Assembly: GCA_037893245.1 (NCBI GenBank)
Contig: JBAIAA010000258.1
Span: forward strand, 1,116,001 to 1,180,000
Length of the DNA: 64,000 nt
From: Crossaster papposus
Taxonomy: Eukaryota > Echinodermata > Asteroidea > Velatida > Solasteridae
Reading direction: 5' to 3'
How positions within the stretch are numbered: position 1 is the first letter of the stretch; each line of letters begins with the position of its first letter. The position numbers and the translations under genes were made by a program. Under the pieces are notes generated by a model, which worked only from the letters and a program-made list of their open reading frames with translations, made no database searches and was not told the origin of the DNA. Shown one piece after another: positions 3,576 to 62,604 of this stretch.

Positions 3576-3587
3576 CTTACCCCAAAA

Positions 3588-7605: not shown

Positions 7606-7893
7606 TGTAACGAAAAGCGTTCTCTGGGGTCGACACACACACACAGGAAGGAAACTCCGACAGGTATTCTGTGGTTTCGGTGATTCTTAAGCCGTTTAAT
7701 TACACTTCTCCGCCGGTCAAAACACTGACATGAAGCTAACCGCTATCACGCGGCACTGGAACCGGTCAGAACCGGTTCGGCGTATGCGCTCACAAGTACG
7801 GGGTTGCCCGGGCGTACCGTCAGGGAGCATCAGGCGATTTCACCATGGAATCGCTCTAGTGCCCTCTATCGACCAACCAGCACAAACGTTACA
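7606..7893 (-). repeat. LTR of the truncated copy
   Basis: On the minus strand it runs TGTAACGTTTGTGCTGGTTG...CGTTACA. The blocks GAGGGC, GAGCGATTCCA and GAACCGGTTCTGACCGG correspond to the LTR at 1770, with many substitutions. Confidence 0.8.
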
Positions 7894-8046
7894 CAGCCCC
7901 CCACGAAGACCTTGTTTGCCCCCAAACAAGACGGTGGGCTCTGCCGCCGCACACCCAGGAGACCCGCACCGGAAAGCGCACAACGCCAACAATTATACAA
8001 CAATTTACATTACAACAATTTACATTACAACAATTATTGGGGTAAG

Positions 8047-8335
8047 CCCCACACCCCTGGCCCCGGCACACCCCTGGCCCCGGCACACCCCTGGCCCCGG
8101 CACACCCCTGGCCCCGGCACACCCCTGGCCCCGGCACACCCCTGGCCCCGGCACACCCCTGGCCCCGGCACACCCCTGGCCCCGGCACACCCCTGGCCCC
8201 GGCACACCCCTGGCCCCGGCAGCGGCCCCGGACAAAATATGGGGAAGGGCGCGCTCTCTCCGAATCGAAGTGGACGCACCGGCGTCCCCCAACACTTGGC
8301 GCATGTCCCGGCACACCCCTGGCCCCGGCACACCC
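8047..8335 (-). repeat. 17-bp minisatellite, interrupted
   Basis: About ten copies (plus-strand CACCCCTGGCCCCGGCA) are followed by 85 bp of unrelated sequence and two more units. It is the same repeat as at 2876-3575. Confidence 0.9.
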
Positions 8336-8649
8336 CTGTAATGTTAAGACTTGACTGCGACTGTGACTGCAACTGGCTCCTCTGACTGCGACTGGTGCCT
8401 GCAACTGCGACTGGTGCCTGCGACTGCGAATGTGGTTCCTGCGACTGCGACTGGCTCCTGCAACTGCGACTTGCTCCTGCGACTGCGACTGGCTCCTGTG
8501 GCCGCGACTGTGACTGCCTCTTGTGACTGCGACTGACCGTGACTGGCACCTGTGACTGGCTTAGGGAGCGTGGGCGTCCCGGTGAGGCCCCGCCCCTGCT
8601 GCGCCGACGAGCCCGGCTTTAGTTGGGTTCTGTATAAATAATGTTTTAG

Positions 8650-21564: not shown

Positions 21565-24500
21565 CTGAATAATAGTTCAGAACAAAAAACAAACATTTTA
21601 AAATACAAAACAGCAAATGGAAAATATGTAAACGTTACTAGCAATGCATTATATATGTATTAAAATTTTGTGAACATTTACTCAACGTGATGAAACTGTT
21701 AGCACAAGGCAATCTTCCACGAATTTGATGCCACAAAGCATTCTTTGCAAAAAATCAACTTGATCGTATACGTTTATTTATACTGTCTGTAAATCATTTG
21801 TTTTTGATTAAGTGGATAAATATGATGATGACATGTGGACAGCATGTGAATGACATGTGGACATCATGTGAATGGCATGTGGACACCATGTGAATAGCAT
21901 GTGGACATGTGAATGGCATCATGTGGACACCATTAATGCATGGGAACATCATCATCTGGACCATGCGTGTGCATGTACTTACAGATGGGGGAGGGGAATC
22001 AAAGCCATCACGGCCGACTGGTGGTTGGTTGGATGAGGATGTGTGCGCTGCTGCTGCCCCCGTGGATGCAGGTGCACCCCAGCCACTAGGCCCTGGCTCG
22101 TAGCTAACCACACAAGGCAAAGAGGAACATAGAAAAATACAAAATGAAGATGTTGATGATGTGGTGAACCCTACAATGTAATAATGAATACGTCAGAACT
22201 GGGGAACTAGATTTTTTCAAAAAATTGAGTTATTTATATTTCTGGATTCTGCAGAACCAATGCTCTCCAATGGTTTTGAAACATCTTATGAAATGTTTTT
22301 CCCAAAGTTGATTATTAAAACAGCGAACCAAATGTCATTGATTTTCTTGATAAAAAAAATAATGAGTACTAATCATTGTGGGACAGACTGTAATTCATGT
22401 GATTTGGTGTGGAAACCTCTTTTCTGCAAACCACAGCAAACATGATCAACAATAGCAAGAGAGATTTGAATGAATTGACACAAAAAACATGCATTTGGGA
22501 AAACCAAGGAGCACTTGCCAGAAGCATTGTCAGAAAACTTTGAACATTTTTTAGTCAGCATTTTTTTCTTACCACTACAACTTACCATACTTTTAAACCC
22601 TAAATGATTCAAGTTAAAGCTTATCCCCCCCCCCCAAAAAAAAAAAAAAAATACAAAATAAATAGTGAACATTAACAATTTGCCCGCTTTTTAGGCGTAC
22701 ATTAATACCAGTACATACATTATCCCTAACTCCCTAGACCATTTTGTCAAGGAACCATCCTCAATCCTGCAAAATCCTCCAGTTAACCACCATGTAAATT
22801 AAAATTTAATTCATCCTCAATCCTCTGAAATCATCCATCATTTCTTGAATTTGTTCAGTAAAGAGGTGGTAGCCTCAATCCTCCAAAATCCTCCACCTAT
22901 CGCAGTAATGGGTTGAGGCAGTGCTGATGACATTCAGAAGCAGTGCGTATGATATCAAGCAAAATGCAGGGTTCTATTATGGTACAGTCAATAACGAACT
23001 TGACACAATTCAACCTTCAAAAACAATTGACATTTTGTTTTGAATTTTCTAACATTCATCCTCAATTCTCCAAAATCCTCCAAAATTGCAAGGAGGCTTT
23101 TGGAGGATATAGGGTTATGGTTGCACACCAGTAAATCAGTTGAAAATTTAAATTCTCTCTAAATTCTCCGCAACATGTACATGTATGTATTAGAGCATTT
23201 TGTGGGCCATGAACTTGTGGGTGTGTAAACAAAAGAGGGAAGCCATGCCAGAGTTGTAGATCGAGTCATTTACAAGTCAATTCAGAAGCACCAAGCGGAA
23301 CAATAACAAAGGAATGCTTTTGTCAAAGTTCCTTTAAATTATGTTTCAGTTCATTTAGTGGATTGCTTGTGTGTTTGCGATTTGGCCGATTAACCCTGCG
23401 ACGTGCCACCACGCTTTTTTTCGAAGTCACTTCGCCGTAAAAACAAATTTGATTTTTCATCATTTGTTTGAAAAAAAAATATCGCAATTTTCATGTATTC
23501 TTAGTTCAAAGCATGCCGAATAGCATGGTAAGTGCCGCTTGAACCCTGGTTGAACCGGTGACAAAGCTTTTTGCAAAGGAAAGTGCTGCCTCACGAGTAT
23601 CTCATTACTTTGTGTACATAAAGGGGCTATTCAAGTCTGGGTTTACCAGACCTACACAAGCAATTAATCACGCTATTGTTGCCTTGCCACATTCAACAAC
23701 ACCAGCTGGGATTGAATATATTCAGACACTATGGAAAAGTACTGTGTTGATATAAAGCCATAAAATCGAACAGTATTGGGGTTATACACGAAATACAACC
23801 GACTTTGAAAAAAAGTACGGACGTGCGTTCGTGTGAAAACAAAAGGGCCGCACGTCGCAAGGTTAAATAATAATAATAATAATTAAATAGCTTGTGAGTT
23901 GACAAAAGACTGAATGACTTGTGATTGACTTATGATCAACTTGAGATCGACTCGATTACAACTCTGAGCCGTGCACAAGACTGCCAGCTTGTATTACTGT
24001 GAAATTCTGAGAACATTTTTAGCCCTAAATTTCAAAGTGAACAAAGAAATTGGCAAGGCGGAACCCGAACCTGCGACCTCCAAAATACCCAACTGAGCTA
24101 TCTTGCCCTATGTTGGCGGTCTCCCAAATTGTCAGTATCTCTGTTCGGTGGCTGTGTGGCCAAGGATCTTGTCGAATTTAACGATACAACCTGGGAAGCG
24201 AATCTTGGGGATCACTCAATGAGAATAAGACTTTATATCCTATAATACACAATTAAACCACAAGGGAAACTGACAAAGTAAATGTGCATAAATTTCAAAG
24301 TGAACAAAGAAATTGGCGAGGCGAACTCGAACCTGCGACCTCCGGAATACTGGACCGGTGCTCTACCCACTGAGCTATCTTGCCCTATGTTGGCAGTTTC
24401 CCAGGTTGTATCGTAAAATTGGACGAGATCTCTGGCCACACGGCATTCTGGTATTTATGACTTCAATTTGAGAGACCGCCGACATAGGGCAAGATAGCTC

Positions 24501-27500
24501 AGTTGGTCATGTTTTACTAGTGTGCAACCTTTAAAGCGTGCAGCATGAGGCTGTGAAGCAAACTATTTTGCCATGCGGTGTATGAATAATATCATGCAGG
24601 TGGAGTATATGTTGATTCAATATTGAGTTTTTCTCTTTACTGACATACATGTATTCTTATAAAGACTGTATTCTCAGTGTTATCATAAGTAATTGTAAGA
24701 AGAAATAAAATCACTCAGGAAACCCATGACATGCTACCAGAGGGGTGGGGAAAATGGGGTGGGGGGAATGAGGTGGGGAAAATGAGGTGGGGAAAATGGG
24801 GTGGGGAAAATGGGGTTTGGAAAATGGGGTGGGGAAAATGAGGTGGGGGGAATGGGGTGGGGGGAATGAGGTATGGGGTGGGGGGATTGGGGTGGGGGGA
24901 ATGGGGTGGGGGGATTGGGGTTGGGGGAATGGGGTTGGGGGAATGGGGTTGGGGGAATGGGGTTGGGGGAATGGGGTTGGGGGAATGGGGTTGGGGGAAT
25001 GGGGTTGGGGGAATGGGGTTGGGGGAATGGGGTTGGGGGAATGGGGTTGGGGGAATGGGGTTGGGGGAATGGGGTTGGGGGAATGGGGTTGGGGGAATGG
25101 GGTTGGGGGAATGGGGTTGGGGGAATGGGGTTGGGGGAATGGGGTTGGGGGAATGGGGTTGGGGGAATGGGGTTGGGGGAATGGGGTTGGGGGAATGGGG
25201 TTGGGGGAATGGGGGTGGGGTGGGGTAAATGAGGTTGGGAAATGAGGTGGGGGAGGAATATAGGATGGGGAGGAATATGGGGGGGGAGGGAATATGGGGG
25301 GGGGATATGGGGGGGGGGGGAATATGGGGGGGGGATATGGGGGGGGGAAGGAATGGGGTGGAAGATGAGGAGGTAGGGGTGAGTACGTCAATAATCACTA
25401 TGAATTTAGAACACGACCGTTGATCGAAAGCAGCACATTCTGATTAACATAACCAACTACAATACTTGGAAGTAAACAGAATGATCAAGGGTAGCTGTGC
25501 TTCTGACAAAGCACGCGAGTGGTCTATCACGGCAGTGCATGGGCCGGGCGCATACAGTACAGTGTGGTCTATACAAAGTGATGATCGCACATTGCATACA
25601 GCACAGCCTTGCATTCAAGGCTAGACTTGCGAGGACTTGCAGGGACTTGAATACAACTCTGCCTGCTACTTAGTGCTGACTACTACTAGTGCAGACATCT
25701 TACCACTCGACCACCAAGCTAGCCAGGGTTGGCTAGCTAGTAAGCAGATCGTGGGTTCGAGTCCCACCCGAGTAATAGTTTTTCTTACAATCCCTCAAGA
25801 CTACATGTACATTGAGTATACAGTGTTTATATAAATACGTCGGCAAATGATATAACTCAATATTGAAGCACAGAGTGCAGCTACCATAAGTAGTTTTAAA
25901 TATATTTTGTTAAAAAAGAAAGAAAATGATTTCGATTGCAAGGCTAATATTACGATTTAGTGATAGAGGAGTGCATTGGAATTGGGTACCAAAGTACCCG
26001 ACTGTTGATGTCAGGAACCAGTTCCAGATTATAGAATCAGATACCTGTAACCAACTTTACAAAAACTTCTTAGACAATGGAAGACACTGAAAGATTTTTA
26101 AAAACTTCCATTCCACAATAATCACATCTCAACAACCTCAAAATGTCTTTTGACCACTGCAAACAAACAAAAATCGCGAACTGAATGTAGTATCCTGACG
26201 CTACTTCAGCGGTTATGTACAAAGTCTATGGGGAGTACCGGTATATAACCTTTTTTAAGGTATTTCCTAACAAAATTGGAAATGTTTCTCAGTCCCAGAT
26301 TCATGTCTTTTCAACATTTTTGCTGTTCCATCTAGCATGCCTAGTCAATCCTTATTTGCTTAAGACGGAGGACTGATTCGGCAAGACTCTGGAACGCTTG
26401 TCTGAACTGGTTTTCTGTCTCCTGACGATGGATACAGTTTATACCATCCAAAATATTGAGGTTTTCCTTGTTTCTTCACAGAACCTCGCCAACGAACTTT
26501 TTTACTAATAAATTCATAATAGTGCATGCATGCACTTAAACAGTTCGCGCCGGGATTATTGTAACATTCACCGAGCCTAGGGGCGGGATTATTTTTAACG
26601 AAACTCGATCCGAGGCGGGTTCAGGCCGATGGTACCGGGAAGCACACCCATGCATTTCCGGATTTGCTTGCTGCCGACAGACATTTCCGGCCTTGTTCGT
26701 GACATGTTTATGCGTCATTCATATTTTAATCTCGAAACAACTTTGCGTGTATATACCGGTACGTCCTCCGGCGCGAACTGGTTAATAGGCCATCAGCCTG
26801 GGGGGTTGGTCGATATCGAATTATGGGAATAATGCTCATGGCAATTTTTGGCCTGGTATGCTACCCTTGTAGTTGGAAAATACATGTATGTGATAGCATT
26901 GTAGCAGTGGCAGATTTGTCAGTGTTATCAACTGTTTTATTATTAAAAACAAATAGCCGCCAAAATGCTTGTTACCACATATAATTAATCCGGTAACAAG
27001 AATATTGGCGGCCATTTTGAAAACAAAATTGAAAAAAGTGATAACATCTAAAAAGCTGCCACTGTTCACGCTGCAATGCTATCACTCTTTTACCAAATCT
27101 AGGTGTGCATACTGGTACCTTGCCAAAAATCACTATGAGCTTTACTCCTCTTTTCAATCATTTGATACCGGTTGACTGTAATTAGGTCTGGCGGCAAAAA
27201 ACGAAAGTTTTCATTGTCAATTTCTCTCAATATGTCCAGGATTTGTCACTTTTCTCTTTTGAAATTTCCAATGGACTGCTACTATGCGCATGAGTGCCTA
27301 ATAATGAATTTAGGTGAACTCGCAAAAGCGATTTATCACATGGTGTACAAGTGAGCAGTTGAAAGGAAAGAGTATAAATATATTAATTTTAATAGTTGTT
27401 AACCCTAAAGCTGCTAAATGCAACAGAATTCCACCAATGGTAAAAAGTTGTTGCAAGTTGTTGCATTTAGCAGGCAATGCATTTCTCCTGGTATCATGCG

Positions 27501-30500: not shown

Positions 30501-33500
30501 AGTTCGTATAGCGCAACGTTAACCATGAGGTGTACACGTACGTGCGCGCATGGACGAATCCCGCAAGTGTGCGTATGGGTGTACATGCATACCCTGAATA
30601 TAGAGCGCGAATGTGCCAAGCGTGAATGAATAAACCTTTGACGCGACTGTACTGCGAATCGTTCCCACAGCTGTGCATGGACATGGTGCACGCCATGCCC
30701 CACCGCGCTCTACCGGTGTTTGGAGTTTGTACACTCGGGACGAGGTTGTCACTGCCAATGATCATGGCGTCGCACTTGTTGCAGTCCAGAGACCAGCCAT
30801 GCTTTTATACAGCAAGTACATGTATGTGTACATTGTTTTTGACAAAATTAAATGTTCATCTGATTTTGTTTTTAACTTGCATTGATCATCAGCAACATGA
30901 ATAACATTGCTAATAGTAATACTCAGTGCAGCACACATGTAAAATGATGATAAAACATGTGCATCAACATTGAAAAAATAAAATGTTGAAAAGTACTACT
31001 TTGGGGGGAGGGAGGGGGTCTTGAAAAGTAGTACGCTCTGTACGACCTTAAAAATGTTGACAACTTTGGACGGCCCCTAACAGTACTGGGAGTCGGATTT
31101 ACAATTAACATAACACCACTTAAACATGACTATGATCAAAACCAGGCTGGTATTATTGGAAATGGGACCTACAAGTGGAACAAAAGTTATATCAACAAAA
31201 AGTGTGTATGGAAATGTATAGACTACGCTGAATTTAATAAATTTTGTCGGACCCCCAAAACATGCGCTGTGATTGGCCAATTTTTCGAGGGGTGTGGCTT
31301 ACTGGATCGGTCGATTGTCATTCATCCACTGTTACTTGTAAAATGGACTTGTGATTTACTTGCGACTGTGCCTCGAGTACACCATCAAGATTTGAAGCAA
31401 TTTTGAGTGGTTAATAACCCTCCACCAAAGATTGCCGAAGATCAATAAGCAGATGTTATCAGAGTTGCAATCGAGTCCCTGCAATTTTTTTCACAAGTCC
31501 AGACACAAGTAAATTGGATGAACGGACATGCGACAGACATTCAATGAACGTGCGACAGACGTGTGACGGACGTGTGACGGACGTGTGACGGACGTGTGAC
31601 GGACGTGTGACGAACGTGTGGCGGACGTGTGGCGGACGTGTGGCGGACGTGTGGCGGACGTGTGGCGGACGTGTGACGGACGTGTGACGGACGTGTGACG
31701 GACGTGTGACGGACGTGTGACGGACGTGTGACGGACGTGTGACGGACGTGTGACGGACGTGTGACGGACGTGTGACGGACGTGTGACGGACGTGTGACGG
31801 ACGTGTGACGGACGTGTGACGGACGTGTGACGGACGTGTGACGGACGTGTGACGGACGTGTGACGGACGTGTGACGGACGTGTGACGGACGTGTGACGGA
31901 CGTGTGACGGACGTGTGACGGACGTGTGACGGACGTGTGACGGACGTGTGACGGACGTGTGACGGACGTGTGACGGACGTGTGACGGACGTGTGACGGAC
32001 GTGTGACGGACGTGTGACGGACGTGTGACGGACGTGTGACGGACGTGTGACGGACGTGTGACGGACGTGTGACGGACGTGTGACGGACGTGTGACGGACA
32101 AATGACAGACAAATGACAGACAAATGACGGACAAATGACAGACAAATGACAGACATATGACAGACATATGACAGACATATGACAGACATATGACAGACAT
32201 ATGACAGACATATGACAGACTTGCGACGGACTTGCGATGGACTTGCGATGGACTTGTAGAGACTCGAACACAACTCTCGCTATTACATTTAGCACATGGG
32301 GGAAAACAACCTGACAACAGCCCAGTACCTGTGGCCATGAATGGAGCTGGCCAGGGAAACAGGCCTGGCCCGTGGGTCGGACGGCAGGACCGCGGGTGGG
32401 TTGTCTTGCCTTCTAGGCGGTGGTTCTACGTTCCTACGGTAACGCTCCAAGGTGGCGGTGTTGTCATTGGGTGGCAAGAAGGGATCTTCTTGGTCGACCG
32501 CGTACGGTAATTTCCTGCGAAAGCAACAAAAAATATATCGGTACAGTCAATGTTATTTGTGACCAGCGGCCGATTTCACAAAATGCTAAGTAGTCAGAAA
32601 GATTGGTGCCCAATATGATAGAATTGTTCACTCGATGATAAAAGCCTTGAATTTGGCATACATTAATAGGAAAGATATCTGGCTATAGGGCGCGATAGAA
32701 GTATTGACTTATAATATAGCTAGCCCAGGGGGGGGGGGGGCGGGGGGCGGAGTGGGGGGGCGGAGGGGGGCCCAACAAAGTGCGCCGCCAACGTTAAAAT
32801 GTATCTCATTCATTCTTCCACGCTCATGAGCCACACATCTCACACAGTAAATACGTATAGATCGCTACCGTGAAGCGCACCATTGAAACACGTACAAATT
32901 TGCTCCGTGTATCGCTCCCCGAATTTAGTGATTCATACAACGTCCGCAAAGCCAGGTACACATGCACGATCTACAAAGAATTTTTTTGGGGAGATGTCAT
33001 TTTCTGACATTTTCGTTTAAAAACAACACGATAAAACGCAAGGGGTTCACAGGCAGATTTTTTAAAAAATTCAGTATATCACACTGCTACATCATTTTTT
33101 AACGTATCCATGGAAAAAAATTAGTGGGTTCGAAGCACGATTTTTCACAATTTATCGATTTTTATTGCCCTTTTTAGGGGAGGTATTTGTCAACGTCGTT
33201 TGAGTATCTGTGCACAATCTCTCTACGTGCATCAACGGTACGTCAACGTAATTTTTTTTCAACTGTTTTTTTTAATTTTCAATACAATTTTTGTCATTGG
33301 ATGATAAAAATTTAGGTAAATAACAACATTGTACAACTACAAAAGACAAGATGTTAAGATTGGATGCCAAAAACTCTTAATTTTTCGCGTGAGAAAATTG
33401 TTCCCCCTATTTTGAGAATGGACGGTACCACAGCGTTTCGCAATCACAGCCTCGAAGGGCCCCCCATCCGCCCCCCCCTGAGGTAGCCAAAATAATACGC

Positions 33501-36500: not shown

Positions 36501-39500
36501 GGAGATCCAACACGCAATGCTTCGAGTGGAATTTAAAGTGTATTTGAGAATCGACATTATCTCAAGTTATATCAGTCGCATCATATCGAGCGTGAATATG
36601 GGAATAGAGCGGATATTTATCTAATGCACATCAAGCGGAGATCGAGCACGCATCGAGCGGAAATCGAGTGCGGATCGAGCGGAAATCGAGCGCGGATCGA
36701 GCGGAGATCGAGCGCGCATCGAGCAGAGATCGAGCGCGGATCGAGCAGAGTTAGAGCGCGGATCGAGCGCGCATCGAGCAGAGTTTGAGCGCGCATCAAG
36801 CGACGTTCGAGCGGAGATCGAGTGGAGATCGAGTATGCACTCAGTCGACATCGAGCGGCTCTCGAGCGGCTCGATATGTAACCTAACTTATGAAATGTAC
36901 TGTACGTGTACCAAACTGGCTAAATATGGTATAGTGTGCAACATCTCAGTCCAAATTGTATTTCTTACTCCTGCGATGTCGTAGAATCCCTTGGCTAGAG
37001 ATGCTATACTGTCCAAGGTGGTTCCCGCTAAGGCTAGGTTGGTATTTGCTGACGACAAATCCTAAAGAGAAAAAAACAAATATACAACATTGGCTAACAT
37101 TAAAAATTAAAACTACCAAATTATTAAAGTACCGGTACTTTACTGGACTGTTGGTGAATGACAGTCTAAAAACATCCTTTGAAATTATAGCACCTGCAGC
37201 CGATTTCACGAAACTGTGCGTAACTTACGCCTTAACTGGATGTGGCGCAAGACTTACGCCATAACTTTAATGCGTAGCTGCGCCATAAGTTAAAATCGAT
37301 TTCACGAAACTCGACTTAGCTACGCAACATCCTATTTTCACTAAAAACTTTTATATTTGTAGGACGAGGGTGACCTCAAGTTCTAACAACGACTGTTTGC
37401 AGTTTGTTGCACAAATATACATAAAACAGACGTTACAATTATACGTGTTTACGCGGATTTGTGTTGGAGGCCGCCATTTTTTGGGGGCTGTGTTAATTGT
37501 AGCGTGAATACCGATTTTAATTAAAGCCGTTTTTTTCTCAATGAAAAACCCATAGTACGATCGCGCCTTGTCTTGACCTATAATGGGAAATTGAAGCAGC
37601 AACTTGAACAAAGATAGGATAGGGATTGTCATCAGTCACGTAAGGTTTGTCACTTGATCATATTGTCGATCGTTGCGTCGATCGAGTCGAGCCAAGGATG
37701 ATGAGCGGCCGGCGGTGTTCGTCTCCTAACGATGATTTAGCGGGTAATTATATAAGTAAATCTGGTAAAAACAGTGAGCACAACATGGCAACTTGAATGT
37801 TTGTGATCGATGTTGAGCGTTATACCGAATACAATGATAGAACTAGTAAAGAAAACAAATGTGGCAGTGGCACTAACTGGGGGGTGGGGGGAGGGCAGAA
37901 CTAAATATTTTAACTGAATTTGTGAGAGAAAAATTAACACGGTTGTTTGGCAACAATTATAAAACTTAAAAGGGAAAAGGTCATAGATGAATATAGAAAG
38001 GTAAAAAAGCTGTGTTGGCAGAGTGCTGTGACAGCGGATGTCAACAAAAGATTGGTTTAAAGCGAGAAAGAGGTGGGGCCTGGGGGAAGGGGGAGCTTGC
38101 TGCAAAAGCTAGAAAATAAAAATGGCCGGGATTGAGAAAAGAGTGGTAGCTAGTAATTCATTGGTATAAGGCATAATAATATTAGGCATAATAATCTGTG
38201 CTCTTTTTTTCCTTCCGTGTTAATCGAGCTGAATACAACTAGGAAATAATTCCATAGGGACCTAGGCATTATTAGGCCTAACGTTACGGACATCATCACC
38301 CTGATTTGTGCACAAACCAGGCTAGCATGGCTAGGGATGAGACTGGTCTGAAAAAAAGTCTGTAGTGTTTTCTTGTTCCTAGGCCCTAGTACTAGTAGGG
38401 TTTTTTGCTTAGATATTTTTTAAGCAACATTTTACGATTGTGTTTATTGCAGCTTTCTTTCAAATTGAGGATTGCGATAAAGATAATGCTGCTGATGATG
38501 ATGATGACGACAACGCTGATCACGACCCATCAGAAAGATTTACTAACTAAACTGGAAGCCTCCATTGCCTCTACATCATCAAGGCCAGACCTGTCAACAC
38601 AGACTGCAACCCCGAGTGGTGTAGAACATGTACAACCTAAAGAATTATCAATAACAAATAGGAAAATGTATGAATTGGACAAATTTACTTCTGGAAATTG
38701 AGAAGAAAAGGCTATGGTTGCAAAGGAACATTTAAAAGTGTCGCAGTATCTTAATGCTAATTTGCAGATGGTCATTGCTATTGCCTGTCAGCAGCGTGCC
38801 ATCATTTTGGTGCCAGCTGAAGATAATGCTTAACGTCTTAACTTCTCATTTCCAGATGTTCTTTATTCCCTGTCATAATTTTCCCTATTTATTGGGGCCA
38901 TTAAAAGTAATCAACGTTTACAAAATGTTGACTCTAAAATGTAGGGGAATTGTCTCCTATGGAGCGTCAAAAGTGGACAACCGTATTTTCCGATTTTCTC
39001 AGAGCTAGTATAATTTTAGGTTTTCAGAAATTGCGACACTGGTTAAAAAAAACCTGGATTTTATGCTAGCAGAAATTTGGATTTTACTATCTGTGTCGCA
39101 GTTTCTGAAAACTTAAAATGTTTGTTCTACATGTACTAGCTTTTGACGCTCCATAGTCTCCACCAGTTCGCGCCGGGATTATTTTAACATCACCGAGCCG
39201 ACGCGCGGAATTATTTTTAACGAAACTCGATCCGAGGTGGGTTCAGCCCGATGGTACCGGAAAGCACACCCACGCATTTCCGGCCTTGCTCCCTGCTGAC
39301 AGACATTTGTGTTTGTATATGTCATCCGGCGCGAACTGGTTAAAAGTCTAACTTAAAAACATTGATATTTTGAATGCCCCTTTATACTTGACATTGAAAT
39401 TAGTCTTGGTTTCAAGATTACGTAAGCGGAGTGATCTTACAAAACCCAGTCAGCCACCCCACTATGAAATTTTGGTTGCAAGACGTCCTAATCGTGGTAT

Positions 39501-42500
39501 GCAGCGTGCGTAGGCTGCCGATGCGGGCGCCCTTTAACATACGCTACAGACCACGCCATGACGTTCAAATAGGATGTCTTGGCTAACTGACAATCGCTCA
39601 AAAATTTATGAGCAGAATTGTGATGCATTTTCATGCGCGTGTGACGTTGCGTGCATAATTACGTGACGTAACAGAAACTTGACCAATGAGTATGATTATG
39701 CATGTTACGTCAACGCGATTATACACACAATGTCACGTCACACGCGCATGCAAATTCTGCTGGGAATTTTTGTTAAGTGATTATGTCCATTAGCGAAGAC
39801 GTTCAATTTAAAGGTCATGGCGTTTATTAAGAGGGCGCCCGCATAGGCGGTCTACGCGCACTGCATACTGAGATTAGGACGTTTTGCAACCAAGACTACC
39901 CACTGTGTAGCAGAATAATGTAAAAATATACTGTAAAAATGGAGAATGCACCCGAGTTCCTGCATTTAGAGGCCAAAAATCAACTTAAGACAAAGCCAGG
40001 GAAAGGCATATTGTTTGTATATCCAATGAGAAGTCAAGTTTATAAAATTGCCATGATAATACAAACAAGTCTTGTTTATATTTATTTATATTTATTATCT
40101 TTCTTTATTATAATTTCTTTCTTGGAACAATTTGTGTGTATACAATGTACATGTAGAATTTATTTATAAATAAAAAACGGAAGCCTTGTTCCTAGACTTG
40201 CATTGGTTTCTCAATTTGTCATGTTTTGTAGTGTTTTATATAACCTATAAACTGGGTACAAAAACTACAAAAACAATCCTTTGGTTCTGGATTTGATTTT
40301 AACAGGTGGGTTGCTTATCTAACAATACATTTGGAGAACGCACTCCTTACAAACCACATTCCCTTTCATTCCCGAGTACATTATGTATTTTGTTCGACCA
40401 ATATAAGCCTACATTCATCTTTTAGGGGTGCATGAGGGCGCTGTTTAACTTTTGAGACGAAAAAGTGCGCCGGAGATTTGTTAAAGTGAGATTTAAACGA
40501 GGGTCACGGTGGTTTTTTTTGCACGCGACATTTACTAACGTTAACGGAAAATGAGAAACTATCCTTGTAGGACGCTCCAAAGTCCAAACATGTCGTAAAT
40601 CTTTAACGATTTGGAAAATACCCTTCTGAGAAGAGCGATACCGTCCTCTGATTTCGTCGTCTTCGTGATGATATATAGGGGATTTATTCGGTCACGGAAC
40701 AATCTTTCACGGCGAAGCGCTCTTCGGTGTTCACGTTGAACGCCATGTTTACGACACATAGCCAAGACTTACGCCACCTAAAGTCATGGCGTAAGTTACG
40801 CCACATCTTATGGCGTAACTCGGTGAGTTACGACATATCCCGATAATGCGTAACTTTCGTGAAATCCGTCCTAAAGTTATAGCGCAACTTGCGCAATAAG
40901 TTATGGCGTAAGTCCACTTACGCCATAAAGTAAAGTTTCGTGAAATCGGCTGCTGGTGTGCCATAATTTTTAAATGCTATTTTTATATCAATTTCCTTCA
41001 AAAATTTCTTTTTTCAAATACTACTCCCAATTTACCATATTTTGTTAGCAATCGATATGAACGGGTATAGGCCAAAAAAAAAAGTTCCCTCCTTGACCTT
41101 TAATAATTGCTCTGCTTCATCTTAAGTGGAGTCAGGGAACCAGACTACAAGAACTTGGAGACTACAAGAAATGATTTCTTTTCCTTGATTTTCAAGTATC
41201 TACAAACACAAACACAGTTTCAACTGGCGTTTTTCACGTAAAACAGATTGCACCCAACTGTATCATGTATTGTGTAAACGTTCCACTTATTAATACGCAC
41301 AAAATACATGTACTTCCAAAAAACTCCCAGAATGGCATAGCAGGAGTGAGAGGTACAAACTTGTACATGTATTACCACAGGATTACATGTATTACCACAT
41401 TACCACAGGGCCTGTGGTAATGTCCCAAAAAAACAAAGGAATCTGTGTGGTAATATCCTGTGGTATACGGTCCTGTGGTAATACCACAGAACATTTTTGT
41501 AAGGAGAGATAAGGGGTAGGCATACACAGGGTTGTGGGACACAACATCTGACCGCGTTGTAGGGACATTTCCGTGTCCCTATAACATTTTGTGTCTCCAG
41601 TAAATGGGTCTAGAGGTAGAATTGGGTTAGGGTATAATAATGAAAGAAGACGGAGAAGACGACAAATTAGGGTGATGTTGAAAAGTTTAGGTCAAAAGAA
41701 TTTTCAGAGTTTGGGTTTAGAGAGATTTTCCTTAAGCACACGACCCCTATGGAAGGTCCCCATAACGTTATGTACTAAAAGACGTAAACAACTAAATACT
41801 GGTTCTAGAACCGCGGCGGTTACACATACTTACCTTGCCAAAAGGACTTGTTGTTTTGCCGCAAATCATGTAGTAATCTAGAAAAACTGCAGACAGAACA
41901 AGAAAAAATAAAAACAGTGTGACATCAACTGTTATATAAGCGGTACAAGCATAGAGCTACGGTACATCTATATTACTACATGTAGAGCGCTAATTCCTCA
42001 TTCTTACATGCAGAGACACTTTCAAGACGTCTGGCGCGCAAACATTTTTGAAATCGTGGGGTATTTGTAGAACATAATGAAATTAAAATTCTAAGCTTTG
42101 AAAGTGTACTCAAAATGTATTAACGTGCAAGTACATGTACAACACGCAAACAACTTAAGTGCGTCTTGATGGTTAAAAATCATTGTCACAGCAAAAATCA
42201 TCTGCAGCGATACGCGTTATTTGCGCAGAGCAAAATGAAATGCTCATTTACATGTACTTTATATTGTGCAACTCGGTTTTGGGCGAATCAGCTTTAAAAA
42301 AAGCACCTGTGTTGACCAGTACGCGCCAGGATTATTTTAACATCCCCGAGCCGAGGGACAGAATTATTTTTTACGAAACTCGACCCGAGGCGGGTTCAGG
42401 TCGATGGTACCGGGAAGCACACCAACACTCCTGTGGCTTTCTCGGTGCCGACAGACACAGCCTTGCTCGTGACGTGTTTATGTGTCATCTGTTTTGAATC

Positions 42501-43451: not shown

Positions 43452-44131
43452 CTGTTGAATACAAAAAAAACACACGTTTAAAAGTGGGAATTGGTACCAG
43501 ACAGGAAGATAAGTAAATATAAAGAAGAGAGCAACAAAGAACCAAAAATGTTGTAATCGTAATAAAAGTCAAATGTTACAAAAGTACTGTACACATTATT
43601 GCCTGCCAATTGTAAAACCAACATAAAACCAAACATTTGGTCTACAGATTCTAAAATAAGAAAGTACTCGTACAGTGCATAAGTGCGTGTACGAACATTT
43701 CGTACGTATTGTGGACCTACGAAAAATTGACGTCCACAGGATGCGAGAAAAGGTTACTGATTGTGGACTTGCACGTACCGGTATGTCCACAGTCAGTTTT
43801 ACCCTTTCTAAAGGTTAAAATGGGTTAGGAATGTAGAACACATAAGAGGCCCAGAATCAAAATTTGGGTTTCAAAAGATTCCTACAAGCGAGAAAAATGT
43901 GCATTTAGCCAATGTTTTCTTAACTAACGGGAAAAAAGACATGATAAAGTATGGTATGTACAAATGTACATGTACATGAAGACAAGTTAATGTCCACAGT
44001 ACGTATAGAAGGTAAAGTAGTGTGTCTACAAACAAGTTAAATAAATTTTGTAAAACAGTTATTGCAAAGTCAAGAACAATCTACTTTGTTTGTACATAGT
44101 GTTTCTAAATTCAGTACCCTGTGGAGACCTT
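43452..44131. other. Intronic stretch, nothing recognised
   Basis: TTYH intron sequence rich in GTACATGTAC-type words. No coding or structured repeat is evident. Confidence 0.5.
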
Positions 44132-44711
44132 CAACCGATTTCACGAAACCTTACGCAATTGCATAAGCCCCCTTGCGCCACAACTTATTGCGTAAGCTGC
44201 GCTACTTTTGTTTGCTGCGCAACATTTCGCTTACGACAGTTTCACGAAAGTTTGACAGTGCGCAAGTCCGCGGCTTACGCAACAAATTATGGCGTACATG
44301 TAGCTTGCACAGGGGCAGTTTCACGGGAAAGGTTGCAAAATGAAAAATAGGTAATCGATGCTTTATTTCACAAGAAGACTTTGTGGGAATTTGCTGGTTT
44401 TTGTCCTACAAGGACCTCTATGTTGTAGGAGTCTCCAAAAATAATTTCACAGTTTTACGTATTACGATTCTCAAATTATAAGCTCACATGAGTGCTAAAA
44501 CACAAGATTTGGAGTCTCATTCACATTTTCTTGGAACTGCAATTGATGAGAAATAAAAATTAAATGCCACAGGAACCACCCAGACTTGCAAGGACATAGA
44601 AGTATGTCCCCAAAATCTGTACACCAGATTTCATTAGGCTGGGCCAACTCATTTGTTTGTTATGCTATTTTGAGTTAGACGTTGATTTGTTCGTTAAAGG
44701 TTTTTTCCAAA

Positions 44712-44728
44712 TGTCCTTTCCTGAACAT
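44712..44728 (+). repeat. Box copy 1 (TGTCCTTTCCTGAACAT)
   Basis: Exact box, preceded by TTGTTCGTTAAAGG 17-31 bases upstream. Confidence 0.85.
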
Positions 44729-44889
44729 GATATTTTTTCTAGAATGAAAAGAAAGGAAACACAACTTATTGCCTGTCAAAATGATGCTACATACTCCAGT
44801 AATAAAATATAAAAATATTGGAATTGGGAAATCACAAGTAAATTTGATAAAGCAGCAGTCGCATATGCCACGCAAATGTTCGTTAAAAA

Positions 44890-44906
44890 TGTCCTTTCCT
44901 GAACAT
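44890..44906 (+). repeat. Box copy 2
   Basis: Exact box, preceded by ATGTTCGTTAAAAA. Confidence 0.85.
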
Positions 44907-45052
44907 GGCCTCCCCTTTTTTACATGAAGTCAGGGATAAAACTTGTTTGACATAAACATGTACCTAGAGGTAGACTTACTTGATTTAACAGACTATACAA
45001 AGATTCAGACTCGAACCCTGCTTGCTGTTGTGACATTGTCGTTAAACTGCAT

Positions 45053-45069
45053 TGTCCTTTCCTGAACAT
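45053..45069 (+). repeat. Box copy 3
   Basis: Exact box, preceded by CATTGTCGTTAAACTGCAT. Confidence 0.85.
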
Positions 45070-45404
45070 ATAGTTTAACGGAGTACTTGCAAAAGCCATT
45101 GTTGCTTAAATTTGATGAAGTATATGCTTATATTGTCTGTAGAGTTTATGTTTTAAAATTAAAACCAACTATGGCCAGAAAGTGTTAGTGTTTTGTTCTT
45201 AAAGGTCATTTACTCACTCGTGTTTACACACAGTATGAGTACACATGTGCATATACATTTATCTTTACAAGTCACACTTAAATCCAATATTTGTCAGGAA
45301 TTGGCTGATCTACAGTTCCATATCATCACTTTCACAAAATACATGCATTAGTTTGAGTCAATTTAATTATAATTTACTGTTTTAGTCTAGTTCTGTGTAT
45401 TCAA

Positions 45405-45421
45405 GTGTTCAGGAAAGGACA
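45405..45421 (-). repeat. Box copy 4 (inverted)
   Basis: Reverse complement TGTCCTTTCCTGAACAC. On that strand it is preceded by CAACTCGTTAAA and an A run, so the GTTAAA lead is kept in the inverted orientation. Confidence 0.85.
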
Positions 45422-45604
45422 CTTTTTTTTAACGAGTTGAGCAACATCTGTTAGACACTCTTTTAACAGTTCTTTCTGTGTGTCCAGCCATTTGATTAGT
45501 TTTACCTATATATCAGAGCTTTGTGACACACACGGTTAGTTTGCGAGGGTTGCTATTTTCTGTTAAAGTACATATAGGACCATGTTGAACATTGTTAAAA
45601 TGTG

Positions 45605-45621
45605 TGTCCTTTCCTGAACAT
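45605..45621 (+). repeat. Box copy 5
   Basis: Exact box, preceded by CATTGTTAAAATGTG. Confidence 0.85.
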
Positions 45622-45767
45622 AAATGAAAATGATATATGTATTTAACCAAAAACTTCTGAAGTAATTTTATCAGAATTTTGTGTAAAACAGTAAATTGGT
45701 CAAGATTGGTATTCTTTTATTGAAATTGTCACTGAAAAACTTGTATATTGATCATTGTTAAAAATTG

Positions 45768-45784
45768 TGTCCTTTCCTGAACAT
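45768..45784 (+). repeat. Box copy 6
   Basis: Exact box, preceded by CATTGTTAAAAATTG. Confidence 0.85.
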
Positions 45785-46131
45785 GTTTTAAACATTTAAC
45801 AAGGAACAAGTACAGATACACATGAACCTTCCTCCGTGTATACAAGTGTACAAACACTTCAAACTGTTTTGGGCGTGATGTGCCTATTCCTTAGACCCCA
45901 TTTTGTAGAAAGCACCATGCTAACTGAATAAAGTTCACTGGATAATAGTTTAATTATCTAAGCATTTCTTGTTGGGGCATACACTGTACGTGTATCAATG
46001 TCTCAATTTAAAGTTATTTTCACCAGCAATGATTATTAATCATTTACAGTGATGGACATTACTTTAGTTTACTTTATTGTCATGTAGGAAATGCACGGTG
46101 CTATGCTACATGTAGAACTTGTTAAATATTG

Positions 46132-46148
46132 TGTCCTTTCCTGAACGT
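46132..46148 (+). repeat. Box copy 7
   Basis: One change at the end (GAACGT), preceded by CTTGTTAAATATTG. Confidence 0.85.
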
Positions 46149-46527
46149 AAATACACAGCAGTTAGTTGCAGCATTAACAAGGTACAAACTGATCTGCCTC
46201 ACAAATGTATTTACATGTACATGTACCTCCCAACTCTAAACAAAAAAACACACCTAAATAACACTTTTACAAATAAATAAGTTACTCTTAAACATGCTTT
46301 ACCTACATGTAGTATGTTGGTGTACATAGTAACACATCATGCACGCTGTACATGTTTATCAAACATATTTTATCAGTTTTATTTAAGTTTCTTAACAAAC
46401 TATGTTCATGTCATTACATTGCTACTCTATTGCCACTCTTTATTACTAGTTTTAGGGTTATTTTTCTTGTAAAGTTCATTCTCATAAGATCAAATTTTAG
46501 ACCGAATGTAGTATTTGTTAAAATTGT

Positions 46528-46544
46528 TGTCCTTTCCTGAACAC
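46528..46544 (+). repeat. Box copy 8
   Basis: One change at the end (GAACAC), preceded by TTTGTTAAAATTGT. Confidence 0.85.
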
Positions 46545-47530
46545 AATGAACCCTTTTCATAGCCATGATAAAGACCATGGTAACTCTATAACGCAGCACA
46601 CTATCAATGCAATTTCTTTGCCAATTGTTCTACCATGCATACAGCCCTTGGACAAAAGTGCAAATAATCAGCAGGCTCATGGTTTCCTGTAAAACAGAAA
46701 TGAAAGTTTGTGTTTCAAGGAAAACAAGTTATAAAACTGAATTTTCCGTCAATATATGAAATTACATGTCTTTTTCGTAGCCTAGAGTGCATTAATATTC
46801 AAGACATGACTACTGTAATGACTTTCAATCATTTTAAAGCAACTCCAAGCATGTTTGAGATGTGGAATTAGCAGTTTATGATACCTACCTCCATTTCACC
46901 AATTCTATAGTCTGCAAAGTGTAAAGTGTCTTAAAATTAAAACGAAAAAATGTTTCAGCTTTGCCATTCACATTTTCTAGTACCTTTATGTATGTACTTT
47001 CAACAAATAACCATGTTTTAGCGATACAACAAGTTTCATTTTTGACCCCCCGTGAGACTTTTTTGCAACCTTTCCCGTGAAACTGCCCACAGTCAATTTA
47101 GGTGGCGTAAGATATGGCGTCGCGACTGAAAATGACCTATTTTACCAGCAAATCGTAATTGACGTGGAGCCCGTCATTGCTCAATTTATTAAGCTTGATA
47201 AAAGACACTCACAGTTTCATGATTGAAGTAAAAGAATCACTATTTTACCCGTGACAGAATTGTTAATGTTGCCACACAATTTCGCAGAAAGTCGGACAAA
47301 ACTATTTTCAAAATGGTGGGCGAAGGTGATACAACGACGATTTTGTGAAAGAACACAATAATACGCAAACAGTCGTCGTAAATGCTGTTTAAAACGTTGC
47401 GCAGCTACGCCAAGTTTTGTGAAATGCTCCGTAAGGAAATGGAGCAGCTATGCAACATTTTTGTTGCGTAAGCCTTACGCCACTTTTGAAAATGGTGCAA
47501 GCTACGCACTTTTCGTGAAATCGGCTGCAG

Positions 47531-48441
47531 AGGCCTTATTCACAAAACTTAGGGGAAAACTTAAGTCAGACCTAAATCTAAGCACCCTGCTAACTTAAGT
47601 GGTGCGCTTAATTTGGTATTTACACAAGATCTAAGCACCCCACCTATCTTAGTGCTTCACTTAACTTAAGTGTTTAAAGCAGTCACTGTTGCTCATGCAA
47701 AAAACATGTCATAAACGTTCATACGCAACAATAATTTGAACTTTCTGCCCGGTTTATCATGCACGTACACACGCACACAGCTAACGACGCAGTTTTCAAG
47801 CTCAAGTTAGTGCACCAAAATACATGTACCGATAGTCTGCGTCACGCGCGCGTCAAACGAGTTCGTCATGCACCTTTTAGATGTTTGAAACAAATTGTGA
47901 TGGTGATTTATCCGCATTCTTTCAAACATTGCATGTTATATTTGGCAGTCACGTGTATTGCATGTCATTGATTAACGTTAACGTAATATGTCATCAATCG
48001 CAATCATTCCGCCCGCCTAAAATTCAACAAATCGATCAAAAAAAATCGTTAGAATGTCAACGAACTACAATTCTAGAGCTGTCACACATTAACTTCAGCT
48101 TGGCTTCCTTTTACAATAATTTTATACTGATGAGAAATCCCATAGGCCCTAGAATTTCAAATTTTGTCCCCAAAATGACAGAAAAAGCCGCCATGACACC
48201 TAAGCGCCCCGCTTAATTGAGTTAAGCGCCCCGCTTAATTGAGTTAAGCGCCCCGCTTAAACGAGTCAAGACTAGTCAGACCACACTTAGATTTAAGAGT
48301 CGAAAATAAGTGGGGTACTTAGCAAAAACATTTTGTGAATACCGCTAAGTCATTCAGATTTGTCTAAGTCGATCGGGTATTTAAGTGGGATGCTTATTTT
48401 TTGGGGGACTTAAGTCGTTTTGTGAATACGGATTACGGCCC
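47531..48441. mobile_element. TIR element (GGCC...TATTCACAAAAC), with 23-bp tandem repeat
   Basis: GCCTTATTCACAAAACTTAG on the left and TTTTGTGAATACGG...GGCC on the right are inverted. CTTAAGT/ACTTAAG words crowd both ends. At 48198-48260 a 23-bp unit (AAGCGCCCCGCTTAATTGAG TT) is repeated three times. The left end is four bases from the end of the previous element, so the two are back to back. Confidence 0.65.
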
Positions 48442-59325: not shown

Positions 59326-60779
59326 GAATCCATCAATTATTCATAATAGTAATGAAAACATGCTACTATAGCCTAGCAAAAGAGATATTGGATGGTGCTT
59401 TCAGGCTAATCATCAATTACTTTTTCAAATCCCCTTCTCCAGTGTATTCTCTCTCTGTTTAATAAAAAAAGAAACCATTCCCCTGGGTCGTACTTATATG
59501 TGGCAGGGTAGGGATGTGTTGGCTTCCCTACTGTATGAGTAATCTGCCCCACGGCACTATTTCATGAGCCAAAATTGACAAACATGTACCTTGTACAGTA
59601 CATGGTACCGGTACATCTAACACGTAAATGTTCAAACCTCTGAAACTTTGTACACATGGTGCGAAATACGGTACCCTCTGGAGACATGAACACAATGTGT
59701 ACAATGGAGACAAAACATCTCCGGAGGGTAAATTTCTATAGATGAATAGGTCTCCACTGGGAATTTCACGAATTCAATTTTTGGATTTTACTTAAATTAC
59801 TCAAAAACTAGGATTAGGATGTGGGTTAGGGTTAGTGTTTGGGTTAGGGTATAATGGAGGGTATATTGGGTCGAAATTTTAACCCAGGAAAAAAATTATG
59901 GTTAAAATGGGAGCATTTTGAAAAACGTGCTCGACTTTCTAACCATTTTGTACACGAGAACAAAGCCATGTCTCCACAGTGATACAAAAATGCGAATGCA
60001 TGTACCGGTATGTACATGTACTGTATGTATGTACAGAGGAAAATACATTGTACACATACCGGTACTGTATGTACGGTGCACTGTGGAGACGTGAACACAA
60101 TAGGGACAATGGGAATGAATACGTCCACACATGTACCGGTAGATATGTACATGGCTCAAATTACCTAAAAACTAGGGTGAGGATGCGCAAAGGCGCCACT
60201 ATATTTTTAGTATTAAACAAAAGTGCCTTGATCATAAAATAACAGTATGTGTAATCCAGCACATTTTCAACGGGCACTGCACTATATTTGTACATTTAGT
60301 CAGGTACCGGTACATGTACATAAATTTACATGTACCGATAGAATTTAATTTGTACGCATACATGTCACGTCAATAGGCTCGCAATGATAGCAACTCTAAC
60401 AAAATAAACAGGTAATCGGCCTATGTACATGTATGTACAGTACATGAATGGAGAAATTTGGCATTCACGACACAAAATGTGCCTTTTCTATTAAACAAAG
60501 GTGCATCATATTCATTTGTTGCCGTCTCCTGACAATGGGCATACAATGTAGCATGTTTTGTATGACTCAAATTTGTCAGTTTCTTTTTTCCCTTAATTAT
60601 TTTTTATTTGCAAAAATCATATTTGAATTGTGCTCTAAATCAGAATTTTTATAACTAATACACCCACAAAATAGATTGCACAAAAGTGCTCATGTCAATT
60701 CATAGAGTAACAATCCGATTTGGATATTAAGTACACGTCTGTAAATTGGAGAAAGTCAATCATTATATCTTTTTTGTGT
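59326..60779. other. Non-coding stretch, GTACATGTAC-rich
   Basis: No gene. GGAGACATGAACACAAT (59678) and GGAGACGTGAACACAATAGG (60085) are direct repeats about 400 bp apart. A few GGGTTAGGG words near 59822-59852 look telomere-like but are too short and degenerate. Confidence 0.45.
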
Positions 60780-60824
60780 GTAATGTTGTTGCAAAAGGTT
60801 AGGGGGTTCATAATTTACAGTACA

Positions 60825-61312
60825 TTCTGTAAATATTGAGATGCTGACCTGTTTTTAAAGGTTTGTGTTCATAGATGACGGGAAAACCAAGAAAATTAAT
60901 GCTGTTTTTGTAGTCTGATTTCTTGACTTCCTTCAGACGAAACAGAGCAATTTTAGACGTCGGGGAATTATCAGGTTAGAAAAACCAGACTACCGTAGTT
61001 GGCTGGCACCCGTTCATACATACATACATTAAATAAATTAGGGGCAGTGTTTGAAAATAGTTGAGTGTTTCCAATGATTGGTCGGCAATCATCATTGGAA
61101 ATTGATACAAACTTCCAATAATGGACGGCTTTTTTTTTAAACCACAGCACACTTGAGACTGTTATTCACTCACATTGAAGTGAGGTATTTGATAATAATT
61201 TGGTAGTTTGGTTAAACCCAACTCTCTAGGGTGTGTGCAAATTCCTATTGGAAATTGGAGGATTCAGGACTGTTGGTTCTTGTTCACAAATGGTGTATAC
61301 TACATGTACCTC
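60825..61312 (+). mobile_element. AAGGTAGTA-family element, partial copy
   Basis: AATATTGAGATGCTGACCTG at 60830 and the right end ACAAATGGTGTATACTACAT near 61285 match 17161-17560. The left terminus is eroded. A piece related to 18510-18600 follows at 61420. Confidence 0.55.
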
Positions 61313-61758
61313 TAAGGCTAAAGTTTGAAGTTATCCACAAAGTAACCCACCAAAATACTGTTAAAAAAAGCTTTCATGTTCTTCTAGAGATACATGTGCA
61401 CAATATGTATTATTGATACTAAACTCCCTGTGAAATTAATTCTTCTGGCATGCTTAACATTTTGAAGAAAATAATAGAAGATTTACAAAGATGCACCTCA
61501 GAAACCTTTTTTAAATTTTATTTCTATTAGCGAAGGATGCACGCAATATATTGAAGGACACATGTACCGGTAAATGCACGATTACCGTAGCTCTTTGTAC
61601 AGATCAGTATGATGCAAATGCAAATTAAATTAACGAGGAAAAATGCTCAAGATTCATGATTACAAGAGGAAACCAAACTACGTCTCCTAAAATTGGATGA
61701 TCTACCGGTACATGTAATTACCCTTCCTTAATGGTTAGGAATCACGCTGATTAGTAAT

Positions 61759-62084
61759 TCAGCACTTCTCTGACCACAACAAAAAATTCCCCAGGGTCTT
61801 CGTGAACTGAAAGCCGGACCAACAGTCAGCATTTTTCATCAGATGCTGAGGGCAGAATGTACATAAAATCCTACAGTAGGTGTGCCGACCGCCGCAATTT
61901 CTGCATGTCCCTTGAGCAAATACAAGTACGGTAGATGATGTTTCCAATTTCTTGTTTTGTTTTCTTGCTGCCAGCATTTTAAGCAATTGGGATCTACATT
62001 TGTACAAGAGCGGACAAGTTTTTTGCTTCTAATTTCCCAACAGAGCAATTGTTTGGTAGTACGGTATTTTTTTCCGTATAACAC
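61759..62084 (-). pseudogene. Cysteine-rich fragment, possibly piggyBac-type transposase C-terminus
   Basis: The minus frame encodes LLKMLAARKQNKKLETSS then GTCRNCGGRHTYCRILCTFC and an A-D-C-W-x-x-F ending. The C-x2-C-x6-C-x3-C-x2-C ... C-W spacing recalls the cysteine-rich zinc-binding tail of piggyBac-like transposases (C-x2-C ... T-x-Y-x-C-x2-C ... C-F-x-x-Y/F-H). No catalytic core is seen upstream. It could be an unrelated zinc-binding remnant. Confidence 0.35.
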
Positions 62085-62274
62085 CTGAATAAATCCTCCT
62101 CATCTGATTGGTAGATTGTTGATCACGTGCATTAAATTATTTGTTCCATCGCACGGCACGGCCTCACCGCGACAACAAATTGTCCTATTCAATGGTTGTA
62201 TTCAACGGTGAATAGAACTGACCAATCTCTGACCAATCAGATGGCCAGGATTTATTTAGGTGTTGTATAAAATG
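62085..62274. mobile_element. Palindromic MITE
   Basis: GTATAACACCTGAATAAATC, CTCCTCATCTGATTGG on the left and CCAATCAGATGGCCAGGATT, TATTTAGGTGTTGTATAA on the right are inverted arms of about 50 bp around a GC-richer centre. Confidence 0.75.
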
Positions 62275-62604
62275 TTTCACATTTGTGCGATGGTAAGAAA
62301 AATGTCATTCGGTGACAAATGGAATGTTTCATTCTACTCGGCTTTGCGGCAGCATTCCATCTGTCACCTCATAAAATTACATGTACTCTTACAATGTACC
62401 CACCGCACTCACAAGCATTCAGTATAATATTCGCGGAGTCTTTTGTTCCATGATTGTCATACCGGTACATTCATTAACGGGGTACATTCTGCCCTGAAAT
62501 CCTGAATTTTTATATTTTGGATTGATACGAACCCTTTTTCAAAGGTCTGGGTGAAAGGAAACTACGGTAACTTAACTGTGTCGCATAAACGTACATACAG
62601 TTAT

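Follow-up and report, generated by a model that had tools for sequence, protein, structure and literature searches.

An internal array of conserved 17-bp boxes with a GTTAAA lead as candidate protein-binding sites in a non-autonomous terminal-inverted-repeat transposon

What are eight copies of a short word, spread at irregular distances through a single mobile element, and what might have kept their letters alike while the sequence between them diverged? The question arises at positions 44712–46544 of a 64-kb window, i.e., the whole stretch of DNA that was analyzed here. The answer proposed below is that the array lies in a DNA transposon of its own and that its boxes may be bound by a protein, for which a transposase supplied in trans is tentatively our first candidate.

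The box and its lead

The 17-mer TGTCCTTTCCTGAACAT is present in eight copies in the window, seven on the plus strand and one on the minus strand, each with at most one mismatch and all within 44712–46544 (Table 1). With dinucleotide shuffling the expectation at up to three mismatches was 0.21 copies; the largest count in any shuffle was 2, and none of 100 shuffles reached eight. Allowing three mismatches brought up no further copy in the 64-kb window. All of the copies agree in the first 15 bases of the box. Five copies, all on the plus strand, are exact, and each of the other three carries a one-base change that falls within the last two positions. When the 15-nt core was counted on both strands of the window, there were eight matches with no mismatch, none with one or two, two with three, and 20 with four. 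The distances from the start of one box to the start of the next are 178, 163, 352, 200, 163, 364 and 396 bp.

Every box is preceded, on its own strand and within 20 nt, by the word GTTAAA (8/8). The site can thus be written as bipartite, GTTAAA-n(2–13; 5–6 in six copies)-TGTCCTTTCCTGAAC, with eight such sites in the element. GTTAAA has a frequency per 20-mer of 0.0087 in the window and of 0.038 in the element, the latter value including the leads themselves; assuming independence, eight leads in eight copies would arise by chance with a probability of ~3e-17 at the window rate or ~4e-12 at the element rate. Both strands of the element together contain 14 GTTAAA words, of which eight are the leads. 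With the copies stacked without gaps over the span -80 to +80 nt, only the 15 positions of the box and one T (at -10, within the lead or next to it) exceed the 0.1% level; -50, -12, -11 and box position 16 pass at 1% only. When 60 upstream nt, the box and 40 downstream nt are aligned with gaps, GTTAAA falls into register in all eight copies; alignment of the last 40 upstream nt alone leaves it out of register in several. The lead has the form TCGTTAAA in copies 1–4 and TTGTTAAA in copies 5–8, so that the array splits into two groups. The sequence-only reading that first drew attention to the locus had placed all eight boxes correctly, with their orientations. Its description of five exact plus copies, with differences only in the final bases of the last two and of the inverted one, agrees with the present counts, as do its statements that each box has a GTTAAA lead in its own orientation and that the box is absent from the rest of the window.

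The window was scanned for other arrays of this kind, using 11-mers with at least four copies, at least 60 nt apart and within 4 kb. This filter left 14 words, and no other such array was found among them: the words belong to tandem repeats, to the present box, to a subterminal word of an older element family (37–41 kb), and to a palindrome-like ATGTACCGGTA(CAT) word. The last of these, ATGTACCGGTA, is another dispersed short word, with 14 occurrences in the window (both strands), seven of them spaced over 59606–62460. Among viral contigs the lead-plus-box pattern had no match, and among prokaryotic contigs two stretches had a single match each, which fits chance (~1.4 expected). The 16-mer box matched once in each of five stretches of the viral contigs, which also fits chance, and the terminal inverted repeat (TIR) of the element had no match there. 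Because these collections are viral and prokaryotic, the scans have no bearing on the source genome. The letters of the box, of its reverse and of the TIR gave no match in the texts of the papers searched.

Table 1. Coordinates, within the window, of the boxes, their leads, and the boundaries of the two nested elements
Feature	Positions	Strand	Remark
Box copy 1	44712..44728	+	exact
Box copy 2	44890..44906	+	exact
Box copy 3	45053..45069	+	exact
Box copy 4	45405..45421	-	inverted, last base C
Box copy 5	45605..45621	+	exact
Box copy 6	45768..45784	+	exact
Box copy 7	46132..46148	+	position 16 G (A-to-G)
Box copy 8	46528..46544	+	last base C
Lead copy 1, GTTAAA	44693..44698	+	13 nt before box
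Lead copy 2, GTTAAA	44882..44887	+	2 nt before box
Lead copy 3, GTTAAA	45041..45046	+	6 nt before box
Lead copy 4, GTTAAA	45428..45433	-	6 nt before box on minus strand
Lead copy 5, GTTAAA	45594..45599	+	5 nt before box
Lead copy 6, GTTAAA	45757..45762	+	5 nt before box
Lead copy 7, GTTAAA	46121..46126	+	5 nt before box
Lead copy 8, GTTAAA	46517..46522	+	5 nt before box
Left TIR, 28 bp, GGGCAGTTTCACGGGAAAGGTTGCAAAA	44313..44340	+	28/28 complementary to 47061-47088
Right TIR, 28 bp	47061..47088	-	complementary to left arm
ACAG left direct repeat, likely target site duplication	44309..44312		TTGC-ACAG/GGGCAG ... CTGCCC/ACAG-TCAA (slash, element edge)
ACAG right direct repeat	47089..47092		directly outside right TIR
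Older TIR element, left remainder	44129..44308		homologous to right end of 37191-40958, reverse orientation
Older TIR element, right remainder	47093..47530		outer part homologous to 37194-37328, reverse orientation

The host element and its insertion site

The array sits in an element of 2,776 bp (44313–47088) that is bounded by 28-bp perfect TIRs (28/28 complementary). The direct repeat at its edges is the 4-bp ACAG; it lengthens to 5 bp, CACAG, when the final C of the right TIR is assigned to the flank. One copy of the element is present in the window. No open reading frame of at least 100 amino acids (ATG, GTG or TTG start) overlaps 44313–47088, a Pfam search of the element in six frames, with X at stops, found no family at E ≤0.1, and no direct terminal repeat is listed at 43900–47900. 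The box-bearing element is best read as a non-autonomous DNA transposon of the TIR (cut-and-paste) type.

On both sides the element is flanked by the remainders of an older TIR element, the ends of which, at ~44132 (44129) and 47530, match those of 37191–40958 in reverse orientation. With the box-bearing element taken out and the two flanks joined, the alignment to 37191–40958 crossed the junction with a score of 135, compared with 110 for the left flank alone and with a mean of 113.5 (sd 4.5; best 134) for 440 control joins. At only ~65–70% likeness, 37191–40958 is related to the empty site but does not represent that site itself. Since the joined flanks align across the junction to this relative, the array is assigned to a 2,776-bp transposon of its own that is nested in an older one.

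The window as a whole is rich in transposons. The second element of the older family, 37191–40958, lies in reverse orientation and carries ATTTCACGAAA twice per end (37203, 37299, 40855 and 40936), with GGCGTAAGTTACGCC-like words near these; a dispersed repeat at 39162–39308 and several inverted-repeat stretches are apparently nested inside it. Adjoining the older element is what appears to be a further TIR element (47531–48430), in which TTCACAAAA lies close to either end (plus strand at 47539, minus strand at 48418) and 22-bp tandem units occupy 48201–48260. A reverse transcriptase remnant is located at 6266–6670 (Pfam RVT_1, E value 0.00032, under the curated cut-off). Of 532 open reading frames left after filtering, ten were compared with Pfam; the matches, one to a reverse transcriptase and others to zinc fingers, were weak and fell below the cut-offs.

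Spacers and spacing

The seven spacers and the two ends, with the leads trimmed, were compared pairwise in both orientations. The 72 comparisons have a median z of -0.12; the top value, 5.0, is between the sequence before copy 5 and that before copy 6, and is followed by 2.9 and 2.2. Among the 28 pairs of 120-nt upstream flanks beyond the lead, the mean z is 0.46 and five pairs reach 2.2–2.9, four of which involve copy 5, while the 28 pairs of downstream flanks have a mean z of 0.04 and a maximum of 1.9. Over the 40 nt ending with the box, and with the box included, copies 6, 7 and 8 match copy 5 at 90, 70 and 70%. Tandem Repeats Finder reported no array at 44712–46544. Thus, the whole array does not align as a tandem repeat that has decayed, and there is residual likeness upstream of some copies, mainly of copy 5.

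The sequence-only reading had held that the boxes are inside a TIR element and that they look like an array of protein-binding or recombination sites, not a simple tandem repeat. The perfect TIRs on either side of the array bear out the first statement, and the spacer comparisons, with their one exception, support the view that this is no simple tandem repeat: the spacers could not be aligned as a single decayed tandem repeat with a divergence like that of the box, and the upstream likeness extends to five of the 28 pairs. The weak TTAACAAGG-ACAA match that it reported after copies 6 and 7 was also found, at differing distances from the box. Because neutral decay of a duplicated unit is not expected to leave a core untouched, an invariant 15-base core amid unalignable filler would point to constraint on the word or to its separate acquisition.

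The distances between boxes are close to multiples of 183 bp. The coherence is 0.82; 33 of 5000 random layouts do at least as well, and so do 71 of 3000 when a minimum spacing of 160 is imposed, periods of 120–259 being scanned in each layout. The period rests on seven distances and was sought after the spacing had been seen, and it is regarded as suggestive. Five positions of the implied lattice are empty, three inside the array and one on each side, and no decayed box is recognizable at any of them. The best core matches there have 7–8 mismatches, as in most random 60-nt windows.

Tandem arrays of other kinds occur in the window. A 17-bp satellite, AGGGGTGTGCCGGGGCC, occupies 2874–3575 (41.3 copies, 100% matches), and ten copies of its reverse complement lie at 8050–8221; a larger inverted duplication (2488–4061 vs. 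7603–8618) surrounds both satellite arrays. An 11-bp array, ACGTGTGACGG, extends over 31548–32099 (~50 copies, 98% matches). At 4048–4827, 780 bp form an inverted palindrome, with 87% identity between the stretch and its reverse complement.

Candidate functions of the boxes

Taken together, the features of the locus are best read as a TIR transposon of the non-autonomous kind whose interior carries an array of putative protein-binding sites. That the array is protein-binding is plausible from its sequence: the two-part form and the presence of both orientations favor protein binding over base pairing, whereas the exact identity favors base pairing. As to the protein, it is conceivable, and in our view the first choice, that the boxes are secondary binding sites for a transposase acting in trans, since the array is in a TIR transposon, the box resembles the terminus of that transposon, and Galileo and the P element offer known cases of internal or secondary sites for a transposase. 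The array is confined between the 28-bp TIRs and their ACAG flanks, the core and lead are present in eight of eight copies and in both orientations (7 to 1), and the spacers are largely unalignable. Under this proposal, the DNA-binding domain of a transposase supplied in trans would recognize the GTTAAA and box sites, and the interior sites would concentrate the transposase on the element. The bound transposase would then help to bring the element ends together, and the boxes would be kept while the filler between them drifts. We infer each of these steps, i.e., that a protein binds, that this protein would be a transposase, and that its binding would aid transposition.

The likeness between box and terminus is seen when the box is reversed. 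The reversed box TTCAGGAAAGG (TTCA-G-GAAAGG) resembles the TIR core TTCACGGGAAAGG (TTCA-CGG-GAAAGG). Under three scoring schemes, the score of this match, which was found post hoc and needs a 2-nt gap, was reached by 0.3–1.6% of random 28-mers from the window, by 1.0–2.5% of shuffled TIRs and by 0.7–1.9% of shuffled boxes. The pattern TTCA-N(1-3)-GAAAGG has 10 matches in the window, namely both TIRs and the eight boxes; having been drawn from the comparison, it illustrates the likeness rather than tests it. If the lead is included with the box, the fraction of random 28-mers reaching the score against the TIR is 0.005 for copy 1, 0.03 (0.034) for copy 3, and 0.05–0.10 for the other six, so that it is under 5% only in copies 1 and 3 of the eight. 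The older family provides a second comparison. In its two members (37191–40958 and 44129–47530) the word TTTCACGAAA occurs seven times, at the ends and just inside them. The box matches eight of the nine letters of TTCACGAAA (0.7% of random 16-mers and 0.14% of shuffled boxes do as well) and eight of ten in the 10-mer TTTCACGAAA (1.3% and 0.7%, respectively). The 20 window matches to TTCANGAAA comprise the seven TTTCACGAAA words of the older family, the eight boxes, and five elsewhere. These likenesses weakly suggest that the boxes may be relatives of a terminal recognition word.

Some features of the array fit a transposase less well. Most known transposase sites are located at the ends of an element or close to them. 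Here the boxes extend across the interior, the array starting 371 nt inward of the left TIR and stopping 516 nt short of the right one. The variable spacing of the lead (2–13 nt) fits poorly with one rigid protein, and exact identity over 15 bases is stricter than would be expected of protein sites. Among the literature matches listed, no title or abstract opening describes an interior array of transposase sites.

Known elements provide partial parallels. Galileo, a member of the P-element superfamily in Drosophila, has multiple THAP-domain binding sites in its long TIRs, three in number (BS1–BS3), and multiple sites are proposed to add binding specificity and to compensate for element length (PMC3688188). 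The likeness is that several copies of a short transposase-binding word would be present in one element, binding being putative in the present case. The differences are that Galileo has very long TIRs with tandem repeats, holds its sites within the TIR and employs a THAP transposase, while the element described here has 28-bp TIRs, eight interior sites, no transposase, and a 4-bp direct repeat. In the P element, 10-bp transposase sites are located 9 and 21 bp inside the TIRs and the target duplication is 8 bp (PMC7776569). Perfect TIRs of ~30 bp and internal sites are common to both, but the sites of the P element are close to the TIRs, whereas the eight boxes are found throughout the interior. 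The length of the likely target site duplication does not fit membership in the P-element superfamily, being 8 bp in the P element and 4 bp (ACAG) or 5 bp (CACAG) here. Tetris, a foldback element of Drosophila virilis, has a non-coding middle domain, and its authors suggest that its internal repeats evolved like the binding-site repeats of Galileo (PMC4079207). A middle domain without coding capacity and the presence of internal repeats are shared with the present element; the Tetris repeats, though, are ~220-bp tandem units inside the TIRs, whereas all of the present copies have in common only the 15-bp word and its lead.

A more ambitious version of the transposase proposal has little probability in our estimate. 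It holds that a TIR transposon might have evolved an internal, nucleosome-spaced bipartite array (GTTAAA and a constant 15-mer that stems from the terminus of the element), along which one protein would gather in many molecules over the whole length of the element, providing end-pairing or chromatin capture beyond the ends, a mode that the accounts cited here do not describe. An interior array kept letter for letter amid diverged filler would be a natural experiment on the needs of a DNA-binding protein, and it could tell whether long non-autonomous elements offset their length by adding sites.

It is possible, although we consider it rather doubtful, that a DNA-binding protein of the host, e.g., a zinc-finger protein, recognizes the boxes and that with them the element carries an enhancer, an insulator or a silencing platform. 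Were this so, the element would spread a ready-made regulatory or silencing platform through the genome. Exact words, a second short word nearby, both orientations and unalignable filler are all part of the anatomy expected of such sites, and distances near multiples of 183 bp would suit sites phased by nucleosomes. The gypsy element is an LTR retrotransposon, and the present one is a TIR element with a different word. Su(Hw) binds gypsy sequences, and 12 clustered gypsy Su(Hw) sites function as an insulator in a reporter (PMC9917439). It is a precedent for a mobile element that carries sites of one zinc-finger protein and thereby acts on chromatin, which is putative for the element described here. 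The LTR location of a gypsy-type insulator does not fit the present array, the element having TIRs and no direct terminal repeat listed at 43900–47900. Against a host protein, the resemblance between box and TIR core would have to be coincidental, the period was sought after seeing the only seven distances, and the five lattice positions checked are without a recognizable diverged box.

That the array is what remains of a tandem repeat of ~180 bp, in which the box was kept by selection and the rest of the unit diverged, appears unlikely. It would account for distances near one or two times 183 bp, for the upstream likeness, above all between copies 5 and 6, and for the agreement of copies 6–8 with copy 5 over the 40 nt ending with the box. 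The downstream flanks are unalike, however, the spacers as a whole show no such relationship, and the cores at the empty lattice positions are as distant as those in most random windows. As a statement of origin, it is compatible with both of the binding-site readings. The CENP-B box, also of 17 bp, is an example of a box in satellite DNA.

We likewise consider it improbable that the boxes, in an RNA transcribed from the element, are targeted by small RNAs (microRNA or piRNA); that RNA would then be a sponge or a silencing target. An exact word of 15 nt suits base pairing better than most protein sites, and the A-to-G change at position 16 of copy 7 sits at the edge of the word. A retrotransposon that acts as a microRNA sponge has been reported in rice (PMC5599236). 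The GTTAAA lead, present in eight of eight copies, is not needed for pairing, and one of the eight copies is inverted. Small-RNA precursors find no support either, as neither strand of the box regions has an unusual fold (16 folds, i.e., eight copies on both strands; z -1.01 to 1.20). A microRNA precursor cluster was rejected, there being no stable hairpin per copy in the 16 folds and no Rfam match at gathering score over the element. At a lax threshold, Rfam gave four weak matches in 44100–47600, all below gathering scores. On the antisense strand, a stem of 5 bp (TGTTC/GGACA, including one T-G pair) with the loop AGGAAA can form in the box. Its bases vary in copy 7 alone, where the outer pair is lost, and the stem extends by a further pair in only three of the eight copies (1, 2 and 4); thus, there is no covariation support for it.

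Finally, we give hardly any credence to the boxes being promoter elements of small non-coding RNA genes, with box and lead kept and the downstream, transcribed part free to vary as in snRNA proximal elements and the upstream motif of nematode 21U-RNAs; seven of eight boxes do share one orientation, but from beyond box position 16 to +80 no column, TATA-like or otherwise, clears even the 1% level, and no Rfam family reaches gathering score in the element. The splice and branch sites of the minor spliceosome (5' splice site/branch site), REST/RE1 half sites, heat-shock or STAT-type TTCnnGAA sites and the CENP-B box (17 bp, with other letters) presumably explain neither the lead nor the 15-base identity. 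Elsewhere in the window, a tRNA-like match at 24314–24384 on the minus strand scores 32 bits against an Rfam threshold of 29; it lies within repeated DNA (24026–24506) and is possibly a tRNA-derived SINE.
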